This document shows positions 31,373-35,041 of a stretch of DNA of 64,000 nt, piece after piece. How positions within the stretch are numbered: the first letter of the stretch is position 1; each line of letters begins with the position of its first letter. Origin of the DNA: Candidatus Poribacteria bacterium (GTDB taxonomy: Bacteria > Poribacteria > WGA-4E > WGA-3G); contig JAPOZO010000063.1 in assembly GCA_026706025.1 (NCBI GenBank), forward strand, positions 186,001 through 250,000, in the 5' to 3' direction. The position numbers and the translations under genes were made by a program. The notes under the pieces were generated by a model. It had not been told where the DNA came from and did not search any database. It worked only from the letters and a program-made list of their open reading frames with translations.

Positions 31373-32539
31373 TCAGAACCAAAATCGTGACATCAAAATA
31401 ATCTGGTCTGTACCCTGAAGTTGGCGTAATGTGCCTTTATCTTGGATAGTTTCATCCTCGCCACGGTCAGCATTTGTAAGGTTTGCCCAGTAAAACAGTG
31501 AGATCGCCCCGTTTTCCATAAAATTGTATTGGGCACTGAGTGTCACCCGCTGGCTTGCGTCCCCTTTAAGTGTTCTATCTGGATCGAACAATCCGTATCG
31601 ACCTGCGATGGTGAGCTGGGGCAGGAGTCGGTATTTTGCACCGACGTAATAACCTTTTGAGTTGATGTCATCCGATGCGAAAGAGGATATCGCGCTACTG
31701 TTCCCAAAATTGAACTCTCCTTCTATACTCAAACCCGCGTAGGATGCGGTGAGAAAGGCACCGATAAGGCGTTCCCAGTCTTCACCGGGTTTTTCGAGGA
31801 TGCCAGAAATGCCAGCTCTGACGGGTCCGAGTTGCGCACCAAGTGTGCCGAGTCCGCCTTTCGCTGCAGCGTTATCGGCGTTAAAGAAGGCTGCATTGTA
31901 AAAAACTTTACCTGCATTTCCACCCAGTTCAACCCCGACATCCCGTTTGTTAGAACCGAGACCATATCCTTCCCGAACAAGTATGTTGTGATCCTTCTGT
32001 TTAATGGCGAACGGGAGACGGAATTGCCCAACTTTGACATAGAGGTATTTCGGGATAGCATCTACCGTTGCAAACGCATTCATCGTTGTTCCAGCATTAT
32101 TAGAAAGCGTAAGTCTGATGTGTTCTGAGGCTTGGGCATTGAAGGTTACTTCTGCTTGCATCAATAGGAATCTGTCAATAGAGGAATGGCATGAATTGCA
32201 GCTGGCTATCGCATTTTGCTCTGCGTCAACATGTGTTGTTTTGATGAATGCGGTCTGGAAATCAAGCGATGTGGTGAGTTGTTTAACAACCTCTTTGGCT
32301 TCTTCAGTCACAGCTTCCATGTCGAAATCTTCGGGGAATTCAAAATAGTTCTCTTCAAAAATTTCACCGATACGGTTCCGGGGACCACCGCCTGCGGGGT
32401 CGAGGTGACAAAAGCTACACTCTTTCTCAAGTTCGGTTGCAAACTCAGGACGTGCTTCTGTATCAGTCGTTAAGAAAAAACTGAGCGCGATACAGACTAT
32501 GAATGCGAACCGTAGCAACGATAGCGAGACACGGGACAT
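31373..32539 (-). CDS. Outer-membrane porin fused to a diheme cytochrome c
   Basis: About 388 residues from the ATG at 32539, which gives a normal signal peptide (cleavage near residue 29); an upstream ATG at 32611 is possible. Two c-type heme sites are present, CSFCH (41-45) and CNSCH (114-118), followed by about 265 residues of amphipathic beta strands ending in the outer-membrane signature SRFWF. The layout, cytochrome head plus beta-barrel in one chain, recalls Cyc2-type iron-oxidising outer-membrane cytochromes, which carry one heme. It could pass electrons across the outer membrane. The cytochrome P460 gene lies upstream on the same strand. Confidence 0.8.
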   Translation of the reverse strand: MSRVSLSLLRFAFIVCIALSFFLTTDTEARPEFATELEKECSFCHLDPAGGGPRNRIGEIFEENYFEFPEDFDMEAVTEEAKEVVKQLTTSLDFQTAFIKTTHVDAEQNAIASCNSCHSSIDRFLLMQAEVTFNAQASEHIRLTLSNNAGTTMNAFATVDAIPKYLYVKVGQFRLPFAIKQKDHNILVREGYGLGSNKRDVGVELGGNAGKVFYNAAFFNADNAAAKGGLGTLGAQLGPVRAGISGILEKPGEDWERLIGAFLTASYAGLSIEGEFNFGNSSAISSFASDDINSKGYYVGAKYRLLPQLTIAGRYGLFDPDRTLKGDASQRVTLSAQYNFMENGAISLFYWANLTNADRGEDETIQDKGTLRQLQGTDQIILMSRFWF

Positions 32540-32619
32540 ATTCAAATGTTTTAATCGTGAGGTGGTGTGGCTGAAGTGCCGCACACAGTTATTATAATGT
32601 GTGTTCAACATTTTCTTCA

Positions 32620-32650
32620 GATTGGAATCTCCATGCTTTAGCTTGAAGAG
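32620..32650. repeat. Possible right end of the IsrB-like element
   Basis: The minus strand reads CAAGCTAAAGCATGGAGATT, similar to CAGCCTAAAGGCTGGAGATT at the 5' end of the RNA gene (about 33905-33924). This is what a matching pair of element ends would look like. Confidence 0.4.
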
Positions 32651-32662
32651 GAAAATCTGCCT

Positions 32663-33731
32663 TTATATATCGAAAGTGAGTTGGAGTGCTAAGTTATTCT
32701 GTTCCACTTTCGGTTGTTTAGACACGAGGTCGTATCTAAAGTTAAGTCTGGTTAATATTTTACAATCCTCTAACTTTGCAGAAAGGATTAGTCTTTTACC
32801 ACCTTGTATAGGTTGTAAAGATAAACCGCCTTTTTGGTAGCCACACACTGCTGCTATACCGTGTTTGACATGCTTCACAAGAGTGTTCTTTACTACACCG
32901 AGACACATTGTACCTCCAAATCGTGGTCTTTTACCACCTTTCTGTGGTAATTGTCTATGTAGTTGTCGTCTCTTAATCTGTAAAGGTGATATACAGAATA
33001 TATCTGTATTATCCACAGTTGGTTCACCGCCAATCACATGATATGCCAGGCACCAGCTATCCACACAATGTGTCTCAAAAGATTTGGCAGTCCTATCAGA
33101 TGATTTTTTCAAACCAAGACTATCACGTATAGACTTTGTTTCGTAGCCTTGTATAGTTAAGTAACTGCCACATCTTTTCAACCTCACCATAGAACCAGTT
33201 TTTACCCACTTCAAGCGGACTAAACGACTGGTTCCATTTTTTAGCACCTTCCCAGGGACTCGCCTTAATATCTTCTACGCATATATGTGTGACCGGATAG
33301 AGTTTATCGAGCCAGTTAAGTATGCGCAGTTTCCAGTCCCACCTGGCACGAGTTCCAGCGGGTATGCGTTCTTTATTAGCAAGACGGTTCGTGCGGTTTT
33401 TTCTGTTAGGACACTTTCGTGAACGCCTACCACGCCTTAACTCTCTGCGATTCTTGACCTTCTTCGCAGTATGAGTATGTGCATCCGCCTGAACATTCAG
33501 ATATGTATGGGACTCAGATTTGACGGTGAAACCCTCTTTCTGACTACCAGGATCCACACCCACACATATCTCCTGCGTCCATTCTTTACTTTGATAATTC
33601 AGACGTATACAAAATATACCGTTGTCCCAGTAAGGCGTTGCCTGACCTGACTTAATCATCATAGCAGCGCGCGTTTCTGTTGTAGGCATTAACCGTTTAC
33701 CCTCTTTACTCTTTACAGGAACGAAATTCAT
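32663..33731 (-). pseudogene. isrB: IsrB-like (HNH-less IscB family) RNA-guided nuclease, frameshifted
   Basis: The first frame (33731-33123) carries the PLMP/RRXRR N-terminus (RLMPTTETRA), RuvC-I (VGVDPGSQKEGFTV, D60), an arginine-rich bridge helix (RRELRRGRRSRK) and RuvC-II (ICVEDIKA, E153). The second frame (32663-33247) continues with GYETKSIRDSLGLKK and RuvC-III (HCVDSW). No HNH domain lies between RuvC-II and RuvC-III, which is the mark of IsrB, a family shown elsewhere to nick DNA with an omega RNA. The frames join by +1 at about 33171-33179, near a run of four A. Either a dead gene, a sequencing error, or programmed slippage. Length when joined (about 355 residues) fits IsrB. Confidence 0.8.
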
Positions 33732-33930
33732 CGTAAACTCCCTTGCGGGCTATATGTTTCCCCATTGAGATCACAATACAGAGAGGAATCAGACTTGAGG
33801 AGCATCCGAAACATCTTGTTGTGTGCCACCACAAGCATTGCGATATATTACTCTATTCAGCGTCTCACGTTGTTAGGGTCCCAGCTGGCTGCCGATATTC
33901 TAACAATCTCCAGCCTTTAGGCTGAAGTCA
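33732..33930 (-). ncRNA. HEARO/omega RNA of the IsrB-like element
   Basis: The 199 bases directly upstream of the nuclease start, free of a conserved reading frame, begin on the minus strand with a perfect hairpin CAGCCTAAAGGCTG (33911-33924) and contain several further pairing blocks (GGCAGCCAGCTGGGACCC, GTGGTGGCACACAAC). Position, size and the leading hairpin match HEARO RNAs, now known as omega RNAs of IscB/IsrB. In that family the guide is taken from the sequence just outside the element's left end; here that would be the end of the P460 gene (TTTTCACAGAACTTCA). Confidence 0.65.
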
Positions 33931-34503
33931 CTGAAGTTCTGTGAAAACATAATCAATGTCTTCAACTCGGGTGTGGCAGCCCCAACACACACCGTCTTTA
34001 GCAATGACGGTGAAGTCAGCATCCGGTGCGTTTCGGACATATTCGATGAACTCCCAATCGTTGTGATCAGGGTCTACGCCTGCTTTCTTCCGCATAATCG
34101 CGATGAGTCCCACATAATCCTTACCGGGACGATTTGCTTCCTTTACAACGATACTACCATCCGGGTATGGGAACTGCTGTTCGCCGTTTGGTGCGATGTC
34201 TTCCCGTGTTTTGTTGACATAAACGTTTTTGGTGCCGTTGTGTGGGTCCCCGCCAGGGACGGGAGGGATAGGTTCAGCGTTTAATTTGAGCCATTGTGTA
34301 TAGCCTGCCACATCATCAGGTAAGCCGGGAAGTGCGACTACTGGTTCTTCAGGTTGGACAGGTTCTTCTGTCGTCTCAGGTTTTTCTTCTTCTTGCTGTT
34401 CAATGAGTTCTTCCAACTGTTTTTCGGCACACGCACTGAGAAGTAGACAGCTTATCAGTATTATTGCGAGGCAAGATAGCAGGTTTCGTGTTTGCGTTTT
34501 CAT
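33928..34503 (-). CDS. Cytochrome P460-family lipoprotein
   Basis: About 191 residues from ATG 34503, which has GAGGG upstream; the longer frame to 34569 lacks support. Lipobox LLSAC places the lipidated Cys at 25. After an acidic Glu/Pro-rich linker comes a P460-type domain: NGTKNVYVNKT, YPDGSIVVKEANRPG and NDWEFIEYVRNAP, ending with the heme site CWGCH (173-177). P460 proteins oxidise hydroxylamine or detoxify NO; here it may feed electrons to the downstream cytochrome-porin. Its stop codon sits exactly at the left edge of the IsrB-like element. Confidence 0.8.
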   Translation of the reverse strand: MKTQTRNLLSCLAIILISCLLLSACAEKQLEELIEQQEEEKPETTEEPVQPEEPVVALPGLPDDVAGYTQWLKLNAEPIPPVPGGDPHNGTKNVYVNKTREDIAPNGEQQFPYPDGSIVVKEANRPGKDYVGLIAIMRKKAGVDPDHNDWEFIEYVRNAPDADFTVIAKDGVCWGCHTRVEDIDYVFTELQ

Positions 34504-34534: not shown

Positions 34535-34564
34535 GTTATATTGCGTTGGCGAGGTTTTGCCCAA
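34535..34564 (-). promoter_or_regulatory. Possible promoter for the P460 gene
   Basis: Minus strand TTGGGC (34559-34564), 18 bases, TATAAC (34535-34540), about 30 bases before the start codon. Confidence 0.4.
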
Positions 34565-34633
34565 GCCAATTTCTATAAGGATATGTTTTTATAGTGAATC
34601 GTAAAAATAAAGGGACACTTGCATCCCCCAGTA

Positions 34634-34743
34634 GGTTCGGTTTTGCGGTGTACTCACCCAAATTTGGTTTCCCACACGCGGAGCCCCAATTTTGCTTCGC
34701 AGTGAGAATGCTTATATTTCCGATCTGCATTCCTAACCGAACC
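34634..34743. repeat. MITE-like element with GGTTCGGTT ends
   Basis: GGTTCGGTT and AACCGAACC are perfect nine-base inverted ends about 110 bases apart, with further internal pairing. It occupies the middle of the gap between the P460 gene and ftsY (34504-35041); I see no gene in that gap. Confidence 0.6.
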
Positions 34744-35041
34744 GGCATAGGGTGTCCTATTAATTCTAAACTTTACTATAATACTCCAAAATGTAATACA
34801 AGGACAAATCGTCCTTTACCGGAATTTAGTATAAGACAAAATAGCAAACATTTCAAGGAAATTTGTAATTTGTATGTGTCCTATCTTTTTCCAGTAAGAA
34901 ACGAGGACGTGGATATTTCGTTGACCATTGATAACTAATTTTAGTTTGCCTTTCTGGTTGTTGTTACAGTATCATATGGATGTAGAAAATTCAGATGCGG
35001 CTGCTGAAGCCACAAATACAATAAAAGAAAAAGGAGAGATA

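Follow-up and report, generated by a model that had tools for sequence, protein, structure and literature searches.

Elements of the IS200/IS605 type end in hairpins, and the insertion of HEARO next to ATGA or GTGA was reportedly noted by Weinberg in 2009. In DtIsrB, an IsrB protein of solved structure, the target-adjacent motif (TAM) is NTGA and is read by R323 and Q326; the mutant Q326R accepts TGG (PMC9581776). A relative of these systems is described here from the genome of a Candidatus Poribacteria bacterium (G000), where it lies in a stretch of 64,000 nucleotides (the window; contig JAPOZO010000063.1, positions 186,001 to 250,000). Judged by its sequence, the window element is an IsrB-type OMEGA element with a divergent, HEARO-related omega-RNA; IsrB is related to the ancestor of Cas9. 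Taken as a whole, it is probably a non-autonomous IS200/IS605-like transposon that carries an IsrB nickase and an omega-RNA as cargo and follows a scheme of homing and start-codon insertion.

The assignment begins with the protein. The first isrB frame is matched by Pfam RRXRR with 104 bits. Among solved structures, DtIsrB (PDB 8dmb) matched best, over almost the full protein, with an E value of 1.5e-33 for one protein and 2.7e-48 for the family profile, and IscB came next, through its first part only. The same structure also headed the Foldseek matches of a low-confidence AlphaFold model (mean predicted local distance difference score, pLDDT, 59.5), which served solely for that ranking. The LMP motif, the RRxRR or Arg-rich run of the bridge helix and the RuvC residues D60, E153, H221 and D224 are invariant in 34 aligned copies (residues are numbered as in the orthologue from G008, another species with a copy at the same site). 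None of these copies has an HNH insert, and the alignment to 8dmb is continuous. The IscB equivalog NF040563 gave 85-88 bits and thus did not reach its cut-off of 175, and neither HNH nor TnpB profiles matched the protein of the window element. By analogy, IsrB here is a putative RNA-guided nickase of the non-target strand.

The RNA lies directly upstream. A covariance model of the family places it on the minus strand at 33728-33935 with 165 bits (E 1.8e-47); as the 42 sequences of the model include the window copy, this score locates the RNA and is not independent proof of it. Double, compensatory changes were observed in 24 of its 38 pairs. The Rfam family HEARO (RF02033) aligns end to end with the window copy at 33733-33935, scoring 19.8 bits where the gathering threshold is 83. 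Its best score among 11 loci was 33.5 bits, again below that threshold, and no Rfam family matched the window element at gathering threshold. HEARO is, nevertheless, the sole Rfam family that recurs at the RNA position in several copies, always below threshold. From what is known of IscB and IsrB, the 5' flank of the omega-RNA would serve as the guide.

Both ends of the element are sharp when the seven isrB copies of its own genome, the window copy included, are aligned. They are also marked by a jump in identity between G000 and G008, from 86-92% in the flanks to 99% inside. The window element has no tnpA of its own, by which an autonomous IS200/IS605 insertion sequence is recognized; the window contig gave no match for a Y1 transposase, and five matches lie elsewhere in the same genome.

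A first-pass annotation of the window, made from the letters alone, had described an IsrB-like, HNH-less member of the IscB family with an omega/HEARO RNA. This description is borne out by the best match to DtIsrB and by the covarying RNA. The features on which it was built (a PLMP/RRXRR start, RuvC segments, a bridge helix, no HNH insert and no adjacent transposase) were all recovered, and the place and leading hairpin of HEARO RNA that it saw upstream agree with the end-to-end, sub-threshold alignment. It would have been given up had there been no covariance match together with an HNH or TnpB profile as the best match; instead, HEARO aligned, albeit far below its gathering score, and DtIsrB was the best match of the protein. 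For the span it proposed, 32620-33940, the seven copies and the identity jump correct the ends to 32609-33935. Three features lay beyond its view: the frameshift relative to six intact copies, membership of a multi-copy family, and start codons as a frequent target of that family.

The isrB gene of the window is a real protein gene by its sequence, but it is broken in this assembly. A single extra base near 33157-33158 separates two frames, the second of which is open from 33247 to 32663 on the minus strand. Intact copies encode 342-355 amino acids. Here the reading frame stays open in each of the other six genomic copies, and the same-site copy of G008, which is intact (355 amino acids), lacks the extra base. 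Because the six paralogues and the G008 orthologue are without it, the gene is regarded as broken and not as programmed; a programmed +1 frameshift at CTTA was ruled out on these grounds. The window copy is about as likely as not to be an inert pseudogene, an inactive remnant, as the split gene would suggest. The window copy has, however, retained the scaffold RNA and all catalytic residues, and the intact paralogues of the same genome could act in trans, if they accept the RNA of an element with about 70% identity.

Members of this IsrB family were found in 34 of 38 genomes of the genus, with up to 16 copies each, and they tend, as far as the flanks indicate, to insert exactly between the ribosome-binding site and the start codon. 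In 40 of 75 copies (53%), the ATG of the flank opens an open reading frame (ORF) of at least 60 codons that has no long in-frame upstream extension. In the control, for which the gene calling is crude, ATGA sites look like starts in 13% of cases overall and in 24% of cases outside ORFs, and the observed proportion has 3.7 times the odds of the outside-ORF control (p 2e-7). Of 79 copies, 22 have a Shine-Dalgarno (SD) core immediately 5' of the left end; the background is 7.3%. In three relatives, the empty site is a purine-rich SD, a spacer and an ATG, and the element sits exactly before the ATG with no loss or duplication. The occupied starts include those of dnaN and glnS; behind one copy, the DnaN model matches in full length from residue 1 of the ORF. 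It could be argued that there is no preference for start codons as such, TnpA inserting at any NTGA and selection purging the genic insertions, so that starts and intergenic sites are left. This account falls somewhat short of an even chance. It draws on the 24% of outside-ORF sites that are already start-like and on several copies that are intergenic or disrupt ORFs; yet the excess over that very control persists, and a gene with an insertion at its start should suffer from the loss of promoter and SD, whereas dnaN and glnS do carry the element. In the open-access literature, a scope outside which the subscription papers Weinberg 2009 and Kapitonov 2016 fall, no account was found of IscB or IsrB elements inserting at start codons.

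How such genes could be expressed is suggested by the right end. In most copies, the element closes with AGGAG and then a hairpin, whose covariation (0.624 observed, 0.148 shuffled; 35 copies) is abolished by sliding. The right end has the layout of a split ribosome-binding site, for which a translational function may be proposed. The alternative, that AGGAG and hairpin are purely a transposition signal (a TnpA foot with its hairpin) or a coding constraint, is judged only just less probable than an even chance. It would fit the hairpin ends of IS200/IS605 elements, the similar end hairpins of TnpB elements in the same genome and the isrB ORF, which runs through this segment. On the other hand, an SD core precedes the stem in 65 of 76 copies, the figure for isrB coding windows being 14%, and the stem lies mostly 7-10 nt from the start codon. 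Moreover, AGGAG is retained in most short copies that lack isrB, and essential genes are among the hosts. These observations raise the possibility that a transposon with a split ribosome-binding site of its own can afford to insert in front of essential genes.

In most copies the 3' flank reads ATGA; GTGA, ATGG, ATAA and TTGA also occur. The residues that correspond to the TAM-reading pair of DtIsrB change together with this flank. Arg at the R323 position goes with G at base 3 in 66 of 67 cases, and Gln there with A in 4 of 4; at the Q326 position, Arg goes with G at base 4 in 7 of 8, and other residues, mostly Thr and Gln, with A in 63 of 63. One locus (loci carry L-numbers), L087, has both changes, Gln and Arg, with an ATAG flank. 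The p values, 5e-6 and 6e-9, are inflated by the relatedness of the copies; the changes are not confined to a single subfamily. Because the TAM-reading residues covary with the flank bases, this supports the 3' flank as a TAM read by the protein. Such a natural TAM code of two residues and two bases would extend the single engineered mutant of DtIsrB and could guide TAM re-design.

The window copy itself has a more complicated history. In relatives, the stop codon of the upstream cytochrome P460 gene is followed by about 20-100 nt with AAGGAG and then by the conserved TTG start of a porin-like gene; they carry AAGGAG-N6-8-TTGA in the same reading frame as the window's porin-like gene. The 20 nt to the left of the window copy recur, with 0-4 mismatches, at the P460 end of relatives, where the next four bases are TTGA in most empty genomes and TTCA in the two occupied ones. 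The junction, read directly, puts the P460 stop codon inside the left end of the element. For the element of the window and G008, the predicted guide target is TGATTATGTTTTCACAGAAC followed by TTGA. A plain start-codon insertion was dropped for the window copy, since the sequence on its 5' side corresponds to the P460 site that has TTGA in relatives; its position at the TTG start is therefore most likely the result of a deletion. The copy probably inserted at the GAAC/TTGA boundary (GAAC|TTGA) in the P460 end and later lost about 80 bp up to the second TTGA, which holds the TTG start of the porin-like gene. One empty P460 gene end, L160 (G002:C154), matches the window guide at 20 of 20 positions and has TTCA in place of TTGA at the TAM position, possibly a resistance change or a scar.

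The exact arrangement, including the junction of the ~80-bp deletion, is common to G000 and G008, and the two elements are 99% identical. The synonymous divergence (dS) of isrB is 0.018, while that of the P460 gene is 0.42 and that of the porin-like gene 0.43. As the dS of isrB is far below that of both neighbours, it suggests that the element crossed between species into the same site recently, through homing or lateral transfer. An assembly artefact is unlikely because the flanks differ. Vertical descent of the two copies, with an element that evolves slowly or was homogenized by gene conversion, would account for the common deletion junction, but it is improbable. The dS of isrB is more than 20 times lower than that of either flanking gene, and slow synonymous evolution over a whole ORF is implausible. 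A donor for conversion is also missing among the 38 genomes, in which the next-closest full-length copy to the window subfamily has 72% identity (none above 73%). The favoured reading, same-site spread, has a second instance at dnaN (L063/L069; dS 0.063 for the element, 0.505 for comparison), which is weaker, as a third copy, located elsewhere, is nearly as similar (95-96%). Elements that, by their silent sites, are 8-24 times younger than the genes beside them would be natural evidence bearing on the purpose of the nickase.

The protein family, RNA structure, ends, copies, flanks and empty sites are observed, and the steps proposed to connect them are as follows. A Y1 TnpA supplied in trans would mobilize the element. 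A transcript across the left junction would carry about 20 nt of host DNA as guide, and IsrB would nick the same sequence in unoccupied alleles when NTGA comes next; the nick would make it easier for the element to be copied back there. With NTG-A as the TAM, start codons would be natural targets, and an element placed directly before NTG would spare the protein sequence. The hairpin at the right end would bring AGGAG to 7-10 nt from the start and so replace the displaced ribosome-binding site. The arrival of the window copy at this position in two species would be recent, and its isrB is now frameshifted in G000.

Several points weigh against this explanation. The mobilizing Y1 enzyme of the window element is putative, there being no adjacent tnpA. 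The window copy, with its frameshifted isrB, may be dead, or the extra base may be an assembly error; its left flank has lost about 80 bp, so that the way it inserted is in part reconstructed. The placement at start codons may be due in part to the loss of gene-disrupting insertions. AGGAG also codes for Arg-Ser, which is conserved, and may be a sequence that a transposase recognizes. The TAM covariation is not phylogenetically independent, with L013 departing at base 3 and L072 at base 4, and most of the compared genomes are metagenome-assembled. The boldest form of the explanation is rather doubtful: that the lineage lands on start codons through its NTG-A TAM, separates SD and AUG and brings a hairpin-split ribosome-binding site of its own, that the essential genes dnaN and glnS depend on it, and that the RNA-guided nick spreads it between species at the same starts. 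The surprising parts are the start-site insertion, the natural TAM code and the same-site youth, each a computational result.

Besides its full-length copies, G000 carries derivatives without isrB, several of which likewise end at a start codon. A 367-nt element (L190/L214; G000:C52:322134-322500) is an orphan omega-RNA with a right end, before an ORF adjoining a CobW-like GTPase gene; its RNA could act with IsrB in trans. Two others have about 219 nt (L191/L216 and L192/L217). In the 47-nt L197 (G000:C56:212604), possibly the smallest mobile derivative, the left-end hairpin is fused to the right end directly before the ATGA that opens an ATPase-like ORF. An intact isrB, L003 (G000:C63:184892-185917), lies on the window contig just before the window start, about 34 kb from the window copy, and directly precedes the ATG of a gene predicted to encode a membrane-signalling protein. 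TnpB elements of the genome (L194, L195, L196, L219 and L227) have similar end hairpins in mirror orientation, are not at start codons and may share a mobilizing transposase with the isrB elements. An isrB-like left end, sought next to the IS200-like gene L178 so as to assign the mobilizing TnpA, was not found there. Within the window, 34536-34938 resembles repeats near RAYT-like Y1 genes of G000 (KPNL / PTGPG-like frames), which are possible REP-type (repetitive extragenic palindromic) repeats. The features of the locus are collected in Table 1.

Table 1. Coordinates of the window element, its parts and the adjoining genes.
Feature	Position	Strand	Basis or remark
Whole element	32609..33935	(-)	left end TTCAGTGAC (33935), right end GAAGAAAATG (32609)
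Omega-RNA scaffold (HEARO-like guide RNA), ~208 nt	33728..33935	(-)	family model, covariation, sub-threshold HEARO
Putative guide, host DNA directly 5' of scaffold (3' end of P460 gene)	33936..33955	(-)	
isrB first frame, 202 aa to stop: PLMP, RuvC-I, bridge helix, RuvC-II	33123..33731	(-)	
One-base insertion site breaking isrB	33157..33158	(-)	alignment with six paralogues and G008 orthologue
isrB second frame past insertion: RuvC-III (H, D), TAM-interacting C-terminus	32663..33156	(-)	
Right-end hairpin: AAAGG, then stem; 3' end adjoins downstream start codon	32609..32667	(-)	covariation, own-genome match
TTGA, TAM-like 3' flank; TTG, conserved start of downstream gene	32605..32608	(-)	
Downstream gene: CxxCH-containing outer-membrane porin-like protein	31373..32611	(-)	ORF; weak Porin_4 match, below cut-off
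Upstream gene: cytochrome P460	33928..34569	(-)	Pfam PF16694, 47.9 bits

Among the known systems, DtIsrB of Desulfovirgula thermocuniculi (PDB 8dmb; PMC9581776) resembles the Poribacteria family in its full-length alignment, the absence of HNH and the RuvC residues. The 5' guide RNA (a putative role here), the NTGA TAM and the TAM-reading Arg are also kept. It differs in that the Poribacteria protein is distant (27% in the Foldseek alignment), its RNA has about 208 nt instead of about 300, and the Q326 position is mostly Thr or Gln; natural Q323/R326 variants with NTAA/NTGG flanks occur in Poribacteria. HEARO RF02033 and IscB NF040563 share the RNA position, the AUGCU...AGUC hairpin and the RRXRR protein start, but both scores stay below their cut-offs and the Poribacteria protein is without HNH. 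Similarly, IsrB elements on cyanobacterial plasmids (Stanieria, Leptolyngbya, Dolichospermum) have the same plan, and in three of the records inspected their right end abuts an annotated ATGA start codon; the proteins have 29-50% identity to the Poribacteria family. In the split ribosome-binding sites of T4 genes 25 and 38, a hairpin between SD and AUG likewise restores the spacing; there it was established by mutation (PMC3014915), whereas in the IsrB elements it is proposed from sequence alone.
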